NCBI RefSeq assembly: GCF_900129905.1
Contig: NZ_FQXG01000005.1
Coordinates: forward strand, 1-64,000
Direction: 5' to 3'
Source of the DNA: Ferrimonas marina
GTDB taxonomy: Bacteria > Pseudomonadota > Gammaproteobacteria > Enterobacterales > Shewanellaceae
DNA: 64,000 nt
The position numbers and the translations under genes were made by a program. A model generated the notes under the pieces. It was given only the letters and a program-made list of their open reading frames with translations. It had not been told where the DNA came from and made no database searches. Of the stretch, positions 3,347 through 53,202 are shown piece by piece (the stretch's first letter is position 1; each line of letters begins with the position of its first letter).

Positions 3347-4070
3347 CTTGAGGGCGGATCCCGATCAGGCTGGCCTGACGGCCGGTGCGGGATTGACGAC
3401 GGTAGGAATAGAAACGGGAAGGGTCACTCCAGGTGCAGAGATCGCCGCCATAAATGGCGGTCACACCAAGGCGTTGCAAGCGTTGCCGGGCCAGTTGGTA
3501 GAGATCCGCCAGGAAACGATCGCCATGAGGCTGAAAGGCGCTGTCGGCCTTGGCATCCTCGGCCAAAAACGCCTCACGCACCTCCGGCCCCACCTCAAAG
3601 GCGGTGGGGCCGATGGCCGGACCGAGCCAGGCCATCAGCGACGGCGGCGCCGCACGGAATCGCTCGACGCTACGCTCCAGCACCCCCGCCTGCAGGCCGC
3701 GCCAACCAGCATGAGCCGCCGCAACCTCGTCGCCAGCCTGGCTGCATAGCAGCACCGGCAGGCAATCGGCGGTCATCACCGCGCAAAACTGGCCGGGCTG
3801 ATCGCTGTAGCTGGCGTCGGCGACGGGAATGGATTCGGCCCTGGGCAGGGTTACCACCTCAGTGCCGTGTACCTGCTCAAGCCACTGCAAAGCAGCGCCC
3901 TCGGGCAAGGCCGCCATCAGACGTTGGCGGTTCTGCTCGACCCGGACGGGGTCATCCTGAACATGACCACCCAGGTTAAGACCACGAAAGTCTCCCTCGG
4001 AGACCCCGCCAAAGCGGCCGGTGGACAGCGCCAGCACAGAGTCCGGTACGGGCCAACAGGGCTTCAACAT
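3342..4070 (-). CDS. pgeF: Purine nucleoside phosphorylase/multicopper-like PgeF (YfiH family)
   Basis: This 242-residue protein belongs to the YfiH/DUF152 family. Members have been described as peptidoglycan editing factors and as zinc- or copper-dependent purine nucleoside phosphorylase/laccase-like enzymes. Family features visible are EQVHGTEV (His), TADCLPVLL (Cys) and AAAHAGWRGL (His), the metal-binding His-Cys-His set. The reading frame could be extended upstream, but I place the start at the ATG that overlaps the rluD stop codon as TGATG, which gives the usual family length and implies translational coupling to rluD. The gene order rluD-pgeF-clpB is standard in gammaproteobacteria. The clpB promoter lies in its last codons. 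Confidence 0.93.
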   Translation of the reverse strand: MLKPCWPVPDSVLALSTGRFGGVSEGDFRGLNLGGHVQDDPVRVEQNRQRLMAALPEGAALQWLEQVHGTEVVTLPRAESIPVADASYSDQPGQFCAVMTADCLPVLLCSQAGDEVAAAHAGWRGLQAGVLERSVERFRAAPPSLMAWLGPAIGPTAFEVGPEVREAFLAEDAKADSAFQPHGDRFLADLYQLARQRLQRLGVTAIYGGDLCTWSDPSRFYSYRRQSRTGRQASLIGIRPQA

Positions 4071-5041
4071 CAGTAGTCGAAGCCGTGCTCTTGGGTGTCC
4101 TGGCGCAGCAGTTCCGCCAGATCCACCATGTCCTGGGGCACATCGGCCTGCCACTGCATCATCTCACCGGTGATGGGGTGCTCAAGGCGCAGCATAGCAG
4201 CGTGCAGGGCCTGACGACCCAAGCCCTTGATGGCGTTGCGCAGCGCTTCACTGGCGCCCTTGATCGGACGGGGACGACCGCTGTAGAGCGGATCGCCCAC
4301 CAGCGGATGACCCAGGTGGGCCATATGTACCCGGATCTGGTGGGTACGGCCGGTCTCCAGGCGCAGGCGCAGGCGGGTGTGGGCCCGGTATTTCTCCGCT
4401 ACCCGGTAGTGGGTGACCGCCGGCTTGCCGATCTCGGTCACCGCCATGTGGGTGCGACGCTGCGGGTGACGGCCGATGGGCTCATCAACAAAGCCACCGG
4501 CGGTCATCATGCCAAAGGCGATCGCCTCGTACTCCCGGGTGATCTCCCGGGCCTGCAGCTGGGCCACCAGGTGGGTCTGGGCCGGCACCGTCTTGGCAAT
4601 CACCATCAAACCCGTGGTGTCCTTATCCAGGCGGTGGACGATCCCCGCCCGCGGCACATTCACGATCTCCGGGTAATGATGCAGCAGGGCATTGAGGATG
4701 GTGCCGTCGTGGTTGCCGGCACCGGGGTGCACCACCAGATCCGCCGGCTTGTTGATCACCAGGATGTCGGCGTCTTCATAGACGATGTCCAGCGGGATAT
4801 CCTGAGGTCGAGAACTGACCTCCTCCTCCAGCTCGGCCTGGATCCGAACTGCTTCTCCCCCCATCACTTTTTCACGGGGTTTGGCGGCGATTCGGCCGTC
4901 AAGGGTGACCATCTCCGCCAGGATCCACTCCTTGATCCGGCTGCGGGAGTAGTCCGGGAAGCACTCCGCCAGGGCTTGGTCCAACCGTTGTCCCAGTTGG
5001 GATTCGGAGATGTTTCCTTCTAATTCAATCTGTTGCGTCAT
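4070..5041 (-). CDS. rluD: 23S rRNA pseudouridine(1911/1915/1917) synthase RluD
   Basis: The 323-residue product carries an N-terminal S4 RNA-binding domain (about 17-80) and a RluA-type catalytic domain containing HRLDKDTTG, whose Asp is the catalytic residue. RluD modifies helix 69 of 23S rRNA, which matters for ribosome assembly and release-factor function. Length and motifs match the E. coli enzyme (326 residues). It is the first gene of rluD-pgeF and is divergent from bamD, with a 122-base intergenic region holding both promoters. This divergent bamD/rluD arrangement is conserved in many gammaproteobacteria. Confidence 0.96.
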   Translation of the reverse strand: MTQQIELEGNISESQLGQRLDQALAECFPDYSRSRIKEWILAEMVTLDGRIAAKPREKVMGGEAVRIQAELEEEVSSRPQDIPLDIVYEDADILVINKPADLVVHPGAGNHDGTILNALLHHYPEIVNVPRAGIVHRLDKDTTGLMVIAKTVPAQTHLVAQLQAREITREYEAIAFGMMTAGGFVDEPIGRHPQRRTHMAVTEIGKPAVTHYRVAEKYRAHTRLRLRLETGRTHQIRVHMAHLGHPLVGDPLYSGRPRPIKGASEALRNAIKGLGRQALHAAMLRLEHPITGEMMQWQADVPQDMVDLAELLRQDTQEHGFDY

Positions 5042-5163
5042 AGTTTCAGGCTTAAGCTGGAAAGGCTCGAATTCAATATCAGTTCTGTTAGAATCGCTCA
5101 GATTGCATTTTATCGCTTTTTGCCGTGCTCCGGCACGGTCAGTTTTAGGGATCCTTCACACGC

Positions 5164-5928
5164 ATGCGTAAAATCACAGGCCCGCTGCTGCTGGCAGTCA
5201 GCAGTCTCCTAGTTGTCACCGGGTGCTCCAGCTCAGGCGACGATAACCAGTTCCAGCTGGATAATCGCTCCCCCGAGACCCTGTATAACGATGCACGCCA
5301 AGCCATGGAATTGGGCAACTTCACCCGGGCTTCCGAGATGCTGGAAGCGCTGGATAGCCGTTACCCCTTTGGCGCTCACAAGACCCAGGTTCAGCTGGAC
5401 CTGATCTACGCCTATTACAAGCTGGATGACAGCGCCAGCGCCCTGGCCAACGTCGACCGCTTCATTCGCCTGAACCCGACCCACCCGGACATCGACTACG
5501 TCTACTACATGCGTGGCCTGGTCAACATGCAGACCGACAGCTACCTGTTCCACGAGATGGTTGGGATGGACCGCAGCGATCGCGACCCGAGCAACGCCAT
5601 CAGCGCCTTCCGGGATTTCGAGACCCTGATCAAGACCTACCCGGACAGCCGCTACGCCCCGGACGCCCTCAAGCGGATGCAGATGCTGAAAAACCGCCTG
5701 GCGGAGTACTCCCTGCGTGTGGCCGAGTACTACGTCACCATGGAGGCCTGGGTGGCCGCCGCCAACCGGGCCCAGCTGGTGCTGGAGACCTACCCGGACA
5801 CTCCCGCCACCGAGAAGGCGCTGGAGATCATGGTGCGCAGCTACGGTGAGCTGGAGATGAGCGCGATGGAAGACCACAGCCGCCAGGTGCTAAAGGCCAC
5901 CTACCCCGATAACCGCCTGGTGCGCTAA
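5164..5928 (+). CDS. bamD: Outer membrane assembly lipoprotein BamD
   Basis: The 254-residue protein has a lipoprotein signal peptide with lipobox VTGC (Cys at about residue 21), followed by TPR-type helical repeats (motifs such as LYNDARQAMELGNF and a second block around residues 60-130). It is the essential lipoprotein partner of BamA in the complex that folds beta-barrels into the outer membrane. Length and the divergent position next to rluD match the E. coli gene. A 16-base tandem repeat that includes the stop codon follows it, then a strong bidirectional terminator shared with hpt. Confidence 0.96.
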   Translation: MRKITGPLLLAVSSLLVVTGCSSSGDDNQFQLDNRSPETLYNDARQAMELGNFTRASEMLEALDSRYPFGAHKTQVQLDLIYAYYKLDDSASALANVDRFIRLNPTHPDIDYVYYMRGLVNMQTDSYLFHEMVGMDRSDRDPSNAISAFRDFETLIKTYPDSRYAPDALKRMQMLKNRLAEYSLRVAEYYVTMEAWVAAANRAQLVLETYPDTPATEKALEIMVRSYGELEMSAMEDHSRQVLKATYPDNRLVR

Positions 5929-48224: not shown

Positions 48225-48254
48225 GAAAAAACGGCGGCACTGGGTGCCGCCGTT
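48225..48254 (-). terminator. Terminator of the cytochrome/lipoprotein module B
   Basis: On the minus strand an inverted repeat (48232-48239 with 48245-48252) is followed by TTTTTTC. It ends the transcript that carries the lipoprotein at 48277-48741. The stretch 48016-48224 shows no gene. Confidence 0.88.
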
Positions 48255-48276: not shown

Positions 48277-48741
48277 TCAGAGCGTGATGGTCTGCCAGTC
48301 GGAAGCGGCACGCTCACCGGCGACGTGGATCATCAGCTTTAGCTGGTTGATGCTCTCGTCCCACTCGGGCGTGACATCCGGCACAAAGCGGTACTGTCCC
48401 GGCTCCTCACTGACCAGCTCGCCCAGGCACTGGGGCACAAACTCACCGCAGCCGAACTGCTCACTGTGATGCCAGCCCATGTTGTAGGCGGAGATCACCT
48501 GATCGGAAAAGCCCAGAAAGGCCAGCAGGTAGTTATCCCCCGCTCCGGTCAGCGGCTCACCACTGTCGTCCGCCAAGGTGAAGGTGACCTCGTGGCTGCT
48601 GGCATCAAAGCCGGTTACCTCGAGCACCACGCTGTCGGCCTGGTCGATGGGTAGGCCCGGGGCCGGATCGTCATCGCTGCTACTGCTGCAGGCGGAGACC
48701 AGCAGCGCCAGCCCTACTGCGGTGGCAAGTTGCTTGTACAT
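48277..48741 (-). CDS. Small lipoprotein paired with a Tat cytochrome (module B)
   Basis: The 154-residue product has a lipoprotein signal with lipobox VSAC (Cys18) followed by an Ser/Asp linker, a pattern typical of outer-membrane lipoproteins. The start follows a perfect AAGGAGGTGTCT. The rest is a beta-rich domain with pattern V-x-F-x-L-x-D-x-x-G-x-P-x-x-G (about 50-65) and the conserved WHHSEQFGCGEFVPQCLGEL (about 92-111) and GQYRFVPD, shared with the paralogue at 50041-50502. The first pattern recalls the N-terminal beta-domain of OmcA/MtrC-type outer-membrane cytochromes; that relation is inference. Its gene begins 10 bases after the cytochrome stop codon. Confidence 0.75.
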   Translation of the reverse strand: MYKQLATAVGLALLVSACSSSSDDDPAPGLPIDQADSVVLEVTGFDASSHEVTFTLADDSGEPLTGAGDNYLLAFLGFSDQVISAYNMGWHHSEQFGCGEFVPQCLGELVSEEPGQYRFVPDVTPEWDESINQLKLMIHVAGERAASDWQTITL

Positions 48742-48751
48742 AGACACCTCC

Positions 48752-49735
48752 TTACTTGTGGCAGGTGAGGCAGTCAGACAGATCGCCACCGCCGAAGTCC
48801 GGGTGCACCGGCGTGGTGTCCAGCGGATGCGGGGCGTGACAGGAGGCGCACTCCATACCGCTCATCACGTTGCTGGCCCCCACCGGGTTGTCCGGCGTCT
48901 GGGCATCGCCGGGCTGGCCATGGCAGCTGATACAGCCCTCGTTGGCCGGCGCTACAATCGGGGCATCCAGCTTGCCGTCCAGGGCGTCATTGAGGAACTT
49001 GACCGCGATGTAGCTGATGTCGGAAGTCACCTGGGCACAGCGTTCGGTAAAGGCCTTGGAGCCGATGCCATACCCGCTGGAGATCGACCAGTTGGTGACG
49101 GAGGCGTGGCACAGCACCGAGCCGGCTACCGAGGCCCCCACCTGCTCCTGGGTCACCGCGCTGCCGTCGTCCCACTGGTTGGACGGTGCACCGATAAACT
49201 TCAGGTAACCGGATTCGTTCACGTCTCCCACCGGAATGGAGGTCTTCTCGTAGTAACGGAAGATGGCGTGCAGCACCGCCGCATTAGTGGCGTTGCCACC
49301 GGGCAGCTCGAGGATATTCACCGCCATTGCGATGCCGGTCAGGGCACCACACAGGGAGCCGTAGCCCAGCATGCCGCCCTGGCCCACGGCGGCCACGTTG
49401 GTGGGCACACACTCCACCCGCTCGGCATCCTCGTCGCGGCCCTGGCGGCGCAGTTCGTCCGCCAACGGCTTGAGGATCGACTGGAAACAGCCATAGGAGC
49501 AGTGCTTGCGCCAATAGCCCTCGTAGCCCTCTTTCGCTGCCACCAGCGGGTCGAGGCGAACATAGGGCAGGCGGCGCTCTTCCAGATCGGTACCCCCGGT
49601 ACCCACCCCGTTGTCGCAGCAGTTGCAGGGGTGGTCCGCGGCCAGGGCCTTGGGCCCAATCAGGGCGGCCCCGGTCATGGTGCCGGCGATGCCAAGGATC
49701 TGCCCCATGGCTTTGCGTCGATTGATGGACATCAT
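48752..49735 (-). CDS. Tat-exported three-haem cytochrome, split-Soret/C_GCAxxG_C_C-like (module B)
   Basis: The 327-residue product begins with a Tat signal (NRRKAMGQILG, then a hydrophobic stretch to about residue 32). The central domain has CSYGCFQSIL, YGSLCGALTG, LCHASVTNW and ERCAQVTSDI, conserved Cys/His positions also found in its paralogue and reminiscent of the split-Soret cytochrome and C_GCAxxG_C_C redox proteins. Three CxxCH motifs lie at the C-terminus (CISCH, CASCH, CLTCH). It is therefore a folded-exported periplasmic haem protein, probably an electron carrier or reductase. Tat export implies cofactor insertion or folding before export. Start: ATG behind AGGAGAGCA. Confidence 0.82.
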   Translation of the reverse strand: MMSINRRKAMGQILGIAGTMTGAALIGPKALAADHPCNCCDNGVGTGGTDLEERRLPYVRLDPLVAAKEGYEGYWRKHCSYGCFQSILKPLADELRRQGRDEDAERVECVPTNVAAVGQGGMLGYGSLCGALTGIAMAVNILELPGGNATNAAVLHAIFRYYEKTSIPVGDVNESGYLKFIGAPSNQWDDGSAVTQEQVGASVAGSVLCHASVTNWSISSGYGIGSKAFTERCAQVTSDISYIAVKFLNDALDGKLDAPIVAPANEGCISCHGQPGDAQTPDNPVGASNVMSGMECASCHAPHPLDTTPVHPDFGGGDLSDCLTCHK

Positions 49736-49989
49736 TGCTCTCCTTTACTCAGAAATCGGCAGGCCAGGGATTCCTGGGCCACTCCGGTTGAGAATCAATA
49801 TATCCATCTACAAATCAGCCATTTGATAGCAAGATCACAGGCCAAATAGTAACCTAATTCGGTATAAAAAAAGCGGAACCCCAAGACAAATCCAGCAGGT
49901 TCGAAGAATCCCCATTACCTCTTCCCCCTTGTGCAAATCCATAATCTGAAACCGGCACATACGGCCTGAAATACTCGTTAAGCCGAGTA
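49736..49989. promoter_or_regulatory. Region between the two cytochrome modules
   Basis: About 250 bases without a gene, AT-rich in 49790-49870 (TATATTGATTC on the minus strand), probably holding the promoter of module B. I could not find a convincing CRP or FNR site here. Confidence 0.4.
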
Positions 49990-50018
49990 CAAAAAAGGCC
50001 CCATCACAGATGGGGCCT
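49990..50018 (-). terminator. Terminator of module A
   Basis: On the minus strand AGGCCCCATC pairs with GATGGGGCCT across three bases and runs into TTTTTTG. It separates the two modules into different transcripts. Confidence 0.92.
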
Positions 50019-50040
50019 CAATGAGCAGGTTAGCGAGTCT

Positions 50041-50502
50041 TTACTGTGCCGCTTCCGGCACCACCACCTCAGGGGCGCTGCTGGTGCGGGCACCGTGGAC
50101 TCGAACCGTCAGTTTGACGTCCTCAATGCGCCAGCCCATCTCCGGCGCCTGATCCGGCAGGAAACGGTATTGACCCTTGGCGTGCTCCTCAAGATCCCCC
50201 AGACATGCCGGGACTTCCTGGCCGCAGCCAAACTGCTCGGCACTGTGCCAGGGGAAGCTAAAGGCGGTGTGCTCTTCGCCGGCGAAGCCGTAGTAGGTGA
50301 CGCTGTAGTCGTTCACACCGGAGACGGCGTTGCCGTTGCCATCGTGCAGACGGAAACCCACCTGGTAGGTCTCGACGTCCAGGGTGATAGCAGAAACAAC
50401 CAGCTCGTTTGCCTCGTCCACGTTGACGCGCTTATCACTGTCGCTGCTGCAGGCGGTCAGGCTCAGCGCCAGAACCCCTGCCAGGCCAATCGCTCTTTTC
50501 AT
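50041..50502 (-). CDS. Small lipoprotein paired with a Tat cytochrome (module A)
   Basis: The 153-residue product has lipobox LTAC (Cys18) and the same layout as the module B lipoprotein: V-x-F-x-L-x-D-x-x-G-x-x-V-x-G pattern, then WHSAEQFGCGQEVPACLGDL and GQYRFLPDQAPE. The two are clearly paralogues over most of their length. The C-terminus differs (more Pro, Glu and Val). It begins 12 bases after the cytochrome stop, and the lipobox implies outer-membrane anchoring. I know of no function for this family. Confidence 0.75.
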   Translation of the reverse strand: MKRAIGLAGVLALSLTACSSDSDKRVNVDEANELVVSAITLDVETYQVGFRLHDGNGNAVSGVNDYSVTYYGFAGEEHTAFSFPWHSAEQFGCGQEVPACLGDLEEHAKGQYRFLPDQAPEMGWRIEDVKLTVRVHGARTSSAPEVVVPEAAQ

Positions 50503-50514
50503 GGCGCTCTCCTA

Positions 50515-51429
50515 TCAGTGGCAGTCGCTGCAGGTGTTGTGCGGGTTGCCTTCGGTGACGATCTTGTGCGGCGTGTGGCAAGAGCTGCATTCCATCTGGC
50601 TGTTCACGTCGGTGAAGAAGTAGTCCTCACGCTCAGCATCGGTGCCACCGTGGCAGGCCATGCACTCGCCGTTGTCCGGCGACTGGGTCGGGGCGTCGAG
50701 GTTCTGTTCCAGCGAGGCGTTGAGGTAGACCACGGTCTGGTAGGCAATCTCGGCAGTGACCTGGGCGCAACGCTCCAGCTTGGCCTGGTGGTTGGAGCCG
50801 TAACCGGATTCCTTGGACCAGCGGGAAACGGAGGCGTGACACAGGATGGTCTGGGCTACGGAGCTCTTGATGTGCTCCGGAGTCAGCAGCTCGTCATTGC
50901 CGTTGAAGCGGGTCGGGGCACCGATGGCATCCAGGAATGACTTGTCGCCGCGGGGCATGTCGGCACTTTCGTAGTAGCGGAATACCGCGCGGATCACGTT
51001 GGGACGGTCAACGCCGTCCAGCATGTTAACGGCCATGGCGGTGGCGTTGACACAGCCACACAGGGTGCCCCAGCCAGCGATGCCGCCGCCGCCATAAGCA
51101 GAGATGTTGGTGGGGATGGCGGCAAAGTTCTCGGCATTCTCACTGCCGGACTTGGCCAGCTCCTTGACGATGGCGTGGAACACACCGTACATGCAGCCGC
51201 CGTTGCCGTAGCCTTCGTAGGCGGTCTTGGCAACCGCCATCGGGTCCAGCTTAACGTACTGCAGCAGGTTCTGACCCAGGTCGCCGTTACCGCCGCAGCC
51301 GATACCGATCTCACTGCCACAGCCGCCTTCGTTAGCAAACACACTGGGTACGGCCAACGCCGCACCGGCACCACCGGCGATCCCCAGGATCTGACCCATT
51401 GCTTTACGACGATCGATCTTTGCCGTCAT
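50515..51429 (-). CDS. Tat-exported three-haem cytochrome, split-Soret/C_GCAxxG_C_C-like (module A)
   Basis: The 304-residue product has a Tat signal (DRRKAMGQILG, then an Ala-rich hydrophobic stretch) and a mature N-terminus with Cys-Gly repeats (GCGSEIGIGCGG). The central domain shares NGGCMYGVFHAIV, WGTLCGCVNATAMAVN, LCHASVSRW and ERCAQVTAEI with its paralogue. Three CxxCH motifs close the protein: CMACH, CSSCH and CSDCH. It is a periplasmic haem protein of unknown reaction. It is divergent from the ToxR-like gene, whose 431-base upstream region is rich in repeated AAAAT elements. The ribosome site is GAAGGTGAG. Confidence 0.82.
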   Translation of the reverse strand: MTAKIDRRKAMGQILGIAGGAGAALAVPSVFANEGGCGSEIGIGCGGNGDLGQNLLQYVKLDPMAVAKTAYEGYGNGGCMYGVFHAIVKELAKSGSENAENFAAIPTNISAYGGGGIAGWGTLCGCVNATAMAVNMLDGVDRPNVIRAVFRYYESADMPRGDKSFLDAIGAPTRFNGNDELLTPEHIKSSVAQTILCHASVSRWSKESGYGSNHQAKLERCAQVTAEIAYQTVVYLNASLEQNLDAPTQSPDNGECMACHGGTDAEREDYFFTDVNSQMECSSCHTPHKIVTEGNPHNTCSDCH

Positions 51430-51860: not shown

Positions 51861-52709
51861 ATGAGCAAGACACAGCACCCCAACCTGGTTCATATCGGAA
51901 CTTGCAGCTTTCTGCCGGACACCAAACGACTGCTGCACACCAACGGCGAACAATGGGACCTGCCCCGGGCAGAGTGCCAGGTATTGACCTTGCTGGTGGC
52001 GGAGCGTGGCCGACCGGTGGACAAGTTGCGTCTGCGCTGCGGCGAGTTCGATCAACCCCAGGTGGGGGAGTCCGCCGTGGCCCGGGCTGTGTTTCAGCTG
52101 CGCAACTTCCTGGAAGATGAAGACCACACCCTGATTGAGACCATCAAGGGGGTGGGCTACCGCCTGGCCAACGAACCCCAGGCAGGCAGCGCTGAGCAGC
52201 AGATCGCCAGCCCGTCTGTCGACAGCGTGGAGCCACAACCCAGTCTGGCAGCGATCAAGCCCCAGCCAGCCCAAGAAAAGCCAACCCGCGTCCCCTGGTG
52301 GGTCCGCAACCGGGCGCTGTCACTGCTGTTGGTGGGGGTACTGCTGGTTTTGCTGCTGCTCACCCACGCCAGCTACTTCATCCGTACCCAGGCGAGCTCA
52401 GGTTTCGAGCCACGGCAGATTAGTCATGGGGACGTCACCCTGCACTGGTACAGCCCCAGCACCGGCCACGGCCTGGATCAACAAGCCCTGAGCGATCGCA
52501 TCCTCAAGAGCCTGGCACAATGCCCCGAAGCCCCCTGGGAGTCGGTTTACATCGCCCTGTCGTCAGATCAGCAGGGGCTCTCTGTCACCCTGGTAGGACA
52601 CGATGAGGGGGGGCAACTGAAGCTGCGTAACCTGAAGGTCGTCGATACCCGCCTGCGCGGCGATTTCGCCCCAGAGCAATGGTTCCAGAAGGGAGGCCTG
52701 TGTGACTGA
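51861..52709 (+). CDS. ToxR/CadC-type membrane-bound transcription regulator
   Basis: The 282-residue product has an N-terminal OmpR-type winged-helix DNA-binding domain (about 10-103, ending TLIETIKGVGYRL), a Pro/Gln-rich linker, one TM (about 152-169) and a periplasmic domain with two Cys (221 and 281) that could form a disulfide, as in ToxR. It therefore senses something in the periplasm and acts directly on DNA. The stop codon overlaps the next gene by 8 bases. It is divergent from cytochrome module A, whose promoter it may control. Confidence 0.85.
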   Translation: MSKTQHPNLVHIGTCSFLPDTKRLLHTNGEQWDLPRAECQVLTLLVAERGRPVDKLRLRCGEFDQPQVGESAVARAVFQLRNFLEDEDHTLIETIKGVGYRLANEPQAGSAEQQIASPSVDSVEPQPSLAAIKPQPAQEKPTRVPWWVRNRALSLLLVGVLLVLLLLTHASYFIRTQASSGFEPRQISHGDVTLHWYSPSTGHGLDQQALSDRILKSLAQCPEAPWESVYIALSSDQQGLSVTLVGHDEGGQLKLRNLKVVDTRLRGDFAPEQWFQKGGLCD

Positions 52710-53202
52710 CCGATTGAAACTGGCCCTGCTGGTCCTGGTGGTACTGTTGATTGCCGCGGCCCACTGGCTGCGGCCCGGGCCCGGTTACCTGCGCCTCAAC
52801 TGCCATAACACCCTGTACGATGCGTCATCGGAAGCCTCTGGACCAGAAGGCTTTTACCTGGCGGACTATGTCTTCTTCGGCAAAAGTGGGCGCATCTACT
52901 ACCGCTATTTCAGCGTCGAGGGGGAGCCCATCGCCACCCTGATGCTGTCCGGCAAACGGGTGAACCGCGATCCTGACAACCTGGTGATGGACATGGATCA
53001 GTTCGAACCGGTGATGCACCAGCAAGATGCCCAACTGCCGGCCCACTACCATCAACTGGCCAACGCCATCGCCAGTAATGTGGACCGCGATGGCATCCAC
53101 CGGGTACAGATGCAGGTGATTGAACGTCACGATGATGACAACGCCATCGTGGTCCGTTTTGAGCCCAGCCAGATGGTCTGCTCCTGCGTCTACGCCGGAT
53201 AA
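52702..53202 (+). CDS. ToxS-like membrane-anchored periplasmic partner
   Basis: The 166-residue product has one N-terminal TM (about 7-22) and a periplasmic domain with pattern [13 protein letters not shown] and two terminal Cys ([10 protein letters not shown]). The start codon is GTG behind GAAGGGAGG, inside the end of the ToxR-like gene. By position, size and topology it is a ToxS-type partner that would protect or tune the regulator's periplasmic domain. I see no firm sequence relation to ToxS. Confidence 0.7.

Follow-up and report, generated by a model that had tools for sequence, protein, structure and literature searches.

Two gene units lying head to tail in Ferrimonas marina, each consisting of a cytochrome gene followed by a small lipoprotein gene, raise the question of whether the two products work together and where in the cell envelope they would pass electrons. 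The window analyzed here is the whole 64,000-nucleotide stretch at the start of contig NZ_FQXG01000005.1, and both units lie on its minus strand. The ORFs match the arrangement described in the initial annotation: copy 1 comprises a cytochrome of 304 amino acids (P0001; positions 50515 to 51429) and a lipoprotein of 153 amino acids (P0002; 50041 to 50502) with 12 bp between their genes, and copy 2 comprises a cytochrome of 327 amino acids (P0003; 48752 to 49735) and a lipoprotein of 154 amino acids (P0004; 48277 to 48741, read from the ATG at 48741 in preference to the GTG farther upstream that opens the longest ORF) with 10 bp between. A 305-bp gap separates the units. Each had been credited with its own promoter and terminator. 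A terminator-like hairpin follows both copy 1 (49995 to 50019, minus strand; an 11-pair stem with a T tail) and copy 2 (48230 to 48254, minus strand; a stem), with six terminator-like sites found in the region versus 3.5 expected in shuffles. Separate promoters are not supported by the sigma-70 scan, which gave one site, on the plus strand (1.4 expected). The comparison of the two window copies for a common operator yielded nothing useful, the best ungapped match being 13/16, with no control run.

Both cytochromes have three CxxCH motifs and, close to the N terminus, RRKAMGQILG, as had been claimed. In copy 1, these motifs are located at residues 256 to 260, 281 to 285, and 300 to 304, all C-terminal, and the core cysteines of the split-Soret-like domain are C79, C124, C197, and C221. 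Copy 2 has the same architecture and is a divergent paralog on a long branch, 47% identical to copy 1. The assignment of a split-Soret-like domain was borne out by profile matches to PDB entry 1H21 (E = 6.9e-29 with three rows and 7.5e-33 with fifteen rows, the latter covering 1H21 residues 23 to 236) and to NF047622 (E = 8.3e-34 and 7.3e-33; 117.3 and 114.2 bits). The window cytochromes fall below the 400-bit equivalog cutoff of NF047622, which no match exceeded in any of 299 genomes, and thus count as relatives, not as proteins filed under the equivalog. The four core cysteines, H198, and two CxxCH motifs align with Cys/His residues of 1H21, and each is conserved in 110 or 111 copies of the 111 aligned, an alignment from which L170 and the L171 piece were left out. 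These matches place the window cytochromes as divergent relatives of the known split-Soret cytochrome c family. They and the diheme Ssc of Desulfovibrio desulfuricans ATCC 27774 (1H21) have in common the fold domain, the twin-arginine signal, the core cysteines (four), the LCH motif, and two C-terminal CxxCH motifs; compared with Ssc and NF047622, the window pair adds a third CxxCH, present in both copies, and a lipoprotein partner, and most two-heme loci add a regulator pair. The electron route had been proposed as possibly undescribed; the cytochrome-lipoprotein pair is little studied, but the cytochrome superfamily is already known and annotated in Shewanella. An internal stop or selenocysteine codon was considered in the third copy and rejected, the TGA in question serving as the normal stop of that copy.

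Besides the hemes, a C_GCAxxG_C_C-like core is recognized, with PF09719 scores of 32.2 bits for P0003, 26.1 bits for P0001 (just under the gathering score of 27), and 20.3 bits for P0005. The four core cysteines are presumably ligands of the extra iron center of split-Soret cytochrome, and this center could be an active site for redox or nitrosative defense or catalysis, where NO, nitrite, peroxide, or a sulfur species would be the small oxidant reduced, with the hemes as the electron entry and the lipoprotein as a chaperone or anchor. We regard such a role as improbable: ssc does appear in the NO-response table for D. desulfuricans 27774 but with a decrease (-1.74) (PMC5701242, cited for that table), and none of the ten neighboring ORFs compared with Pfam looks like a nitrogen-cycle gene.

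The lipoproteins of copy 1 (lipobox ending in LTAC18; W85-H86; C93 and C100) and copy 2 (lipobox ending in VSAC18) belong to the same family, are 38% identical, and reached no cutoff in Pfam or NCBIfam. Their suggested resemblance to the N-terminal domain of OmcA/MtrC proved significant at the profile level. The top five PDB matches of the lipoprotein profile were all of the OmcA/MtrC/MtrF/UndA type (best, 6r2q_C residues 12 to 136, E = 1.2e-7; fifth, E = 0.034), and the same five entries led after removal of the signal and tether (best E = 7.8e-4, to OmcA); one E-value run of the domain I comparison assumed a database size of 5000, and L073 was left out of analysis A11, its tether cut having been misplaced by the regular expression. 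Among 16 single lipoproteins, one reached PF22111 (E = 0.0068) and one matched the unrelated PF18614 better (E = 5.6e-4). The profile also matched the starts of ORFs of 655 to 901 amino acids in relatives (best E = 4.5e-13 among the matches listed, with hemes unchecked there), and three weak matches in the F. marina genome (E = 0.004 to 0.027) were all in multiheme ORFs. Domain I of OmcA, MtrC, MtrF, and UndA (PF22111, MtrC-MtrF_N) has in common with the lipoproteins a lipobox, an acidic tether, and an aligned pattern that includes W...C...C.G....G.Y. The lipoproteins differ in having no further domains, in their length of ~135 residues after the lipobox, in the location of their genes next to that of a split-Soret-like cytochrome, and in the hemes, ten in OmcA/MtrC, as neither P0002 nor P0004 contains a CxxCH. 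On sequence grounds, the lipoprotein is a domain relative of the heme-free domain I of OmcA/MtrC and not a member of that family.

The co-occurrence of the two families, proposed earlier as a check, was examined in 116 family-level genomes, and the pair was found to be kept together: a lipoprotein gene is directly downstream of the cytochrome gene in 111 of 113 cytochrome matches, counted as 113 cytochrome rows against the best 111 lipoprotein rows listed. Such pairing is far beyond chance. The two exceptions are a gene fragment lying at the end of a contig and a distant split-Soret protein. The further lipoprotein matches listed (E of at least 4.5e-13) are ORFs of at least 655 amino acids, except for an 87-amino-acid ORF in G070, a genome with no cytochrome match; lipoprotein genes lacking a cytochrome neighbor may occur beyond the matches listed. 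Three-heme cytochromes form a minority class (21/113 rows), and the lipoproteins cluster by the class of their partners (21/21 and 89/89), with a distance correlation of 0.86 over 110 pairs (L169, L170, and L171 left out); the order and class searches scored the best 6 to 9 candidates per genome. The tandem arrangement is real in the window but was seen only in this F. marina genome, and in four relatives the unit is single copy at the same locus (the comparison treated neighbors outside the window and L014 by clustering alone). Recent tandem duplication was rejected as the main story in view of the 47% cytochrome identity, the long branch of copy 2, and the single-copy state of those relatives.

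We put at about one in two the probability that each unit is a two-piece, outer-membrane-anchored electron transfer module. The cytochrome, with its Tat signal, would be exported by the Tat system, probably because its four-cysteine iron center is built in the cytoplasm, and once it is in the periplasm its C-terminal tail would acquire two or three c-type hemes. The lipoprotein would travel to the outer membrane, a stand-alone equivalent of the heme-free domain I, and would dock its own cytochrome; the docked pair would be a split counterpart of a surface multiheme reductase, moving electrons at or across the outer membrane face. The homologies (1H21/NF047622 and the OmcA/MtrC profile) and the 111/113 pairing are observed, whereas contact, location, and substrate are inferred; we also count in favor the clustering by partner class, the rarity of Asp after the lipobox cysteine (4 of 99 lipoproteins with a regex-found lipobox, 111 being scanned), and the extracellular prediction for a Shewanella oneidensis protein, SO0939.

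In the literature searched, SO0939 is named in a Tat paper and a network paper and SO0938 in none. We take locus L132, which has cytochrome, lipoprotein, and regulator pairs, to be the SO0939 locus, and SO0939 appears to belong to this cytochrome family, being alike in Tat prediction and split-Soret annotation but having two hemes versus three in the window copies. It is a predicted Tat substrate described as a "split-soret diheme cytochrome c" (PMC3623810), is extracellular by prediction in section 9 of that article, and stands in the OM//Ex column in the cited part of PMC4837345. Counted against the outer membrane reading are the misses of single lipoproteins with PF22111, the absence of the SO0939 deletion from the growth-defective mutants named in section 9 of PMC3623810, and two Desulfovibrio alaskensis split-Soret genes that gave no phenotype in the conditions tested, according to the cited part of PMC4215793.

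None of the eight window neighbors and two third-unit neighbors compared with Pfam looks like an outer membrane conduit, and therefore the route across this membrane is unexplained. Nothing shown here crosses it, and Tat export and c-type heme attachment deliver a cytochrome to the periplasm by default. A periplasm-facing lipoprotein might then tether a cytochrome that buffers electrons or bridges inner membrane donors and other reductases, with no exposure at the surface. This is possible, though we doubt it: the closest solved relatives of the lipoprotein are domain I of surface decaheme cytochromes, the C-terminal end of L021, a split-Soret relative from a Bacteroidetes MAG, presumably resembles a T9SS surface-sorting tail, and SO0939 is predicted to be extracellular, whereas the D. 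alaskensis split-Soret protein is called periplasmic in the cited part of PMC4215793.

A regulator pair absent from the initial annotation lies at 51861 to 53202 on the plus strand, divergent from copy 1. Its first gene (51861 to 52709) encodes a ToxR-type transcription factor with a Trans_reg_C domain at residues 29 to 102 (scores, 35.7 and 30.5 bits versus a cutoff of 26.2), a hydrophobic segment as read from the sequence only, and a C-terminal part with two conserved cysteines, one of them penultimate; its best matches in PDB are ToxR entries, under the title cholera toxin transcriptional activator. The second (52702 to 53202, GTG start) encodes a small membrane partner with a conserved cysteine near the N-terminal end (C34) and a C-terminal CxC (C160/C162), which had no match in PDB and only chance-level rows in Pfam. 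The cysteine codon TGT of the regulator (52701 to 52703) overlaps the GTG of the partner (52702 to 52704), the genes overlapping by 8 nucleotides; among 77 measured pairs, the genes overlapped in 67, and by exactly 8 nucleotides in 38. Since the winged helix, the membrane segment, the C-end cysteine, the partner start overlapping a cysteine codon, and a partner with N- and C-terminal cysteines are all found in the co-component systems ToxR/ToxS, VtrA/VtrC, and MarT/FidL, the small protein is a candidate co-component sensor, although the pair here adjoins a cytochrome pair and not virulence genes.

In the outer-membrane-anchored module, an envelope or redox cue would prompt this ToxR/VtrA-type factor and its VtrC/FidL-like partner to switch on the cytochrome-lipoprotein pair. 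The divergent regulator with its partner accompanies 87 of 91 two-heme rows, and it is found beside window copy 1, but its presence in only 6 of 21 three-heme rows counts against the module. A further regulator match with an adjoining partner occurs downstream at 24 of 90 two-heme copies; at 12 more, the downstream match has no partner and may be a plain response regulator. The prevalence at two-heme loci, the conserved cysteines of both proteins, and these additional downstream pairs would also suit a sensory accessory, in which the cytochrome-lipoprotein pair reports redox state to the ToxR-like system and the output is the regulation of other genes. With no regulator of this kind in the stretch retrieved for 14 of 21 three-heme rows, we consider this very improbable. 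Upstream of two-heme copies, TGTGA-N6-TCACA, which we take to be the CRP consensus, was found within two mismatches in 75 of 89 cases (17% in shuffles); the enrichment was weaker upstream of three-heme copies (10/21 versus 11% in shuffles), and the window copies have two-mismatch sites only. We do not lean on this enrichment because the shuffles ignore shared ancestry.

A structure of a split-Soret cytochrome has been available for about two decades, and we know of no established function for these proteins; the lipoprotein partner and the sensor are fresh handles on it. Shewanella is a main model for extracellular electron transfer, and of the 116 genomes sampled in the family, 91 contain the pair, on which there is little in the literature searched. 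We tentatively suggest a split surface reductase, in which a Tat-exported cytochrome, with its iron center and two or three hemes, docks onto a free lipoprotein anchor equivalent to the MtrC-type heme-free domain I; this might be a second, Tat-dependent extracellular electron transfer module for Shewanella and Ferrimonas, under the sensing and control of its own ToxR/VtrC-type co-component system. With an MtrC domain I that stands alone, the function of the heme-free domain could be tested directly, and a co-component sensor beside a cytochrome would extend such systems past the virulence context of their original description.

Two cytochrome-lipoprotein units lie in tandem on the minus strand, and all four gene positions proposed in the initial annotation were borne out. 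In copy 1, the cytochrome P0001 (50515-51429) is separated by 12 bp from the lipoprotein P0002 (50041-50502), with a terminator-like hairpin after the unit at 50019-49995; in copy 2, 10 bp separate the cytochrome P0003 (48752-49735) from the lipoprotein P0004 (48277-48741), and another such hairpin lies at 48254-48230. The copies are 47% identical in their cytochromes and 38% identical in their lipoproteins. A sigma-70 scan detected no minus-strand promoter-like site near the units. On one side of the locus is a gene pair of glutamate-synthase type and on the other a gene of the nucleoside phosphorylase superfamily; four relatives with the same locus carry a single unit there. A third unit of the window genome, with a two-haem cytochrome, is on contig C6. 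Among the fetched loci, NZ_JAHVJZ010000001.1, titled Marinobacter nauticus, appears to be Ferrimonas-type, of the same genus as the window.

Both window cytochromes matched NF047622, the model for split-Soret cytochrome c (E values, 8.3e-34 and 7.3e-33), with scores of 117 and 114 bits, far below the equivalog cutoff of 400. The only strong relative of solved structure was the split-Soret cytochrome c 1H21, matched at 2.4e-19 by P0001 alone, at 6.9e-29 with three rows, and at 7.5e-33 with fifteen rows. In the alignment of 111 cytochromes, from which the divergent protein L170 and the short gene piece L171 were omitted, a twin arginine occurs in every one of the 109 rows with letters at that position. 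The four core cysteines (C79, C124, C197, and C221), H198, and the first two CxxCH motifs are each kept in 110 or 111 rows and align with the Cys and His residues of 1H21. The four core cysteines are presumably the ligands of an extra iron centre. A third CxxCH is found in 21 of these cytochromes.

The cytochrome was identified in 91 of the 116 sampled family-level genomes, with 113 matches, and at 111 of these the lipoprotein is encoded directly downstream on the same strand, the gap between the matched stretches being -4 to 191 (median, 30). One of the two exceptions is a cytochrome gene of genome G006 that is broken across two contig ends: its front part (L171) lies on contig C60 and the rest on contig C137, where the lipoprotein gene follows; the split could stem from an assembly break or an insertion. 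The other exception is L170, a distant split-Soret protein with a very long branch. It is encoded in genome G031 (positions 4366-5205 of the locus) by an extra split-Soret-like gene that is far more divergent and lacks the lipoprotein. At the order level, the A5 search matched 15 of 247 genomes, all inside the family, and in the class sample 1 of 369 genomes matched, namely, the window's own; in both, the best 6 to 9 candidates per genome were scored. Of 299 phylum-level genomes, NF047622 matched in 3, all of them within the family; it matched none of the 14 control genomes. A pattern-based scan of named genomes yielded seven relatives, including one in a Bacteroidetes MAG (L021, 5818-6975). 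This protein has a C-terminal tail (LEQNYPNPFNPTT...) that resembles a T9SS surface-sorting domain, and no lipoprotein homologue was found near it in the 12.6-kb locus.

Neither P0002 nor P0004 reached a Pfam or NCBIfam cutoff, the chance-level rows numbering three and one, respectively. When a 16-row lipoprotein profile was searched against all PDB sequences, five OmcA/MtrC-type cytochromes headed the list: 6r2q_C (E = 1.2e-7; positions 5-133 of 164 in the profile), MtrF 3pmq (2.5e-6), OmcA 4lmh (6.7e-6), UndA 3ucp (5.3e-4), and 6qyc (0.034). With the signal and tether cut off, the same five entries lead more weakly (E values, 7.8e-4 to 0.13), so the score derives partly from the lipoprotein signal and partly from the domain. 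Among the matches listed in the family search, the best after the stand-alone lipoprotein genes were the starts of ORFs of 655 to 901 amino acids and one 87-amino-acid ORF. Three weak matches in the window genome (contig C15; E values, 0.004 to 0.027) sit in ORFs with at least 5 to 10 CxxCH motifs in the fetched stretch. OmcA/MtrC-type multihaem ORFs are clustered in this part of C15 (about 181000-186000), and the lipoprotein profile matches their N-terminal parts. Scanned singly, one of the 16 lipoproteins matched PF22111 (MtrC-MtrF_N; E = 0.0068) and one matched an unrelated Pfam model (E = 5.6e-4). The lipobox cysteine, H91, C98, C105, G115, and Y117 (P0004 numbering) are invariant in the 16-row alignment.

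By haem count, the 113 cytochrome rows comprise 90 two-haem rows (including the C137 piece of G006), 21 three-haem rows, L170, and the L171 piece. A well-supported branch (99/100) splits the two-haem rows from the three-haem rows plus L170. The haem-class label takes two changes on the tree because window copy 2 joins L170; since the tree program warned that long-branch joins such as this may be false, the third haem probably arose only once. The nearest lipoprotein has the same partner class in all 21 three-haem and all 89 two-haem cases. Across 110 pairs, cytochrome and lipoprotein distances show a correlation of 0.86, a value inflated by shared species history. As judged from sequence, the lipoproteins follow their own cytochromes.

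Divergent from copy 1 and next to it are the genes for a ToxR-like regulator (51861-52709; Trans_reg_C, 35.7 bits over 26.2), whose best PDB matches are ToxR, and its small membrane partner (52702-53202). Of 91 two-haem rows (L170 included), 87 have homologues of both located divergently upstream; among the 21 three-haem rows the number is 6, counting both window copies, which share one regulator. The partner's start codon, GTG at 52702, shares bases with the TGT Cys codon of the regulator (52701-52703), an arrangement already described for co-component cassettes (PMC9214523). With longest-ORF starts, the two genes overlap in 67 of the 77 pairs measured, by exactly 8 nt in 38. The word "Shewanella" is absent from the main text of that paper and of the survey PMC10269533. 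A downstream regulator match with a partner accompanies 24 of 90 two-haem copies. In the genome taken to be S. oneidensis MR-1 (L132), a ToxR-like regulator and partner lie on both sides of the unit (606-1911 and 3779-5045). A CRP-like palindrome, TGTGA-N6-TCACA, is enriched upstream of two-haem cytochromes (75 of 89 within two mismatches versus 17% in shuffles, which take no account of shared ancestry), as in the third unit of the window genome, about 87 bp ahead of the cytochrome start; it is weak at the window copies.

The features established from sequence are the twin-arginine signal, haem motifs, four conserved cysteines, lipobox, domain-I homology, conserved pairing, and regulator architecture. 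In the mechanism that we propose, the iron centre would be assembled before export of the cytochrome, which would explain the use of Tat, and the haems would be attached afterwards. The lipoprotein would sit at the outer membrane (Asp directly follows the lipobox cysteine in 4 of 99 lipoproteins); there it may dock the cytochrome, and electrons would pass at the outer-membrane face. Two observations count against this mechanism: no outer-membrane conduit was identified among the ten neighbouring ORFs given to Pfam, and among the mutants for which section 9 of PMC3623810 names a growth defect, the deletion of SO0939, the S. oneidensis "split-soret diheme cytochrome c," does not appear.

In the open-access literature searched, SO0938 was not found, and the match for "split soret" with Shewanella concerns androglobin; nor did we find this combination described there. 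The cytochrome and lipoprotein form a real and conserved two-protein unit, little studied so far, in which two known kinds are joined and for which we infer a function in electron transfer.
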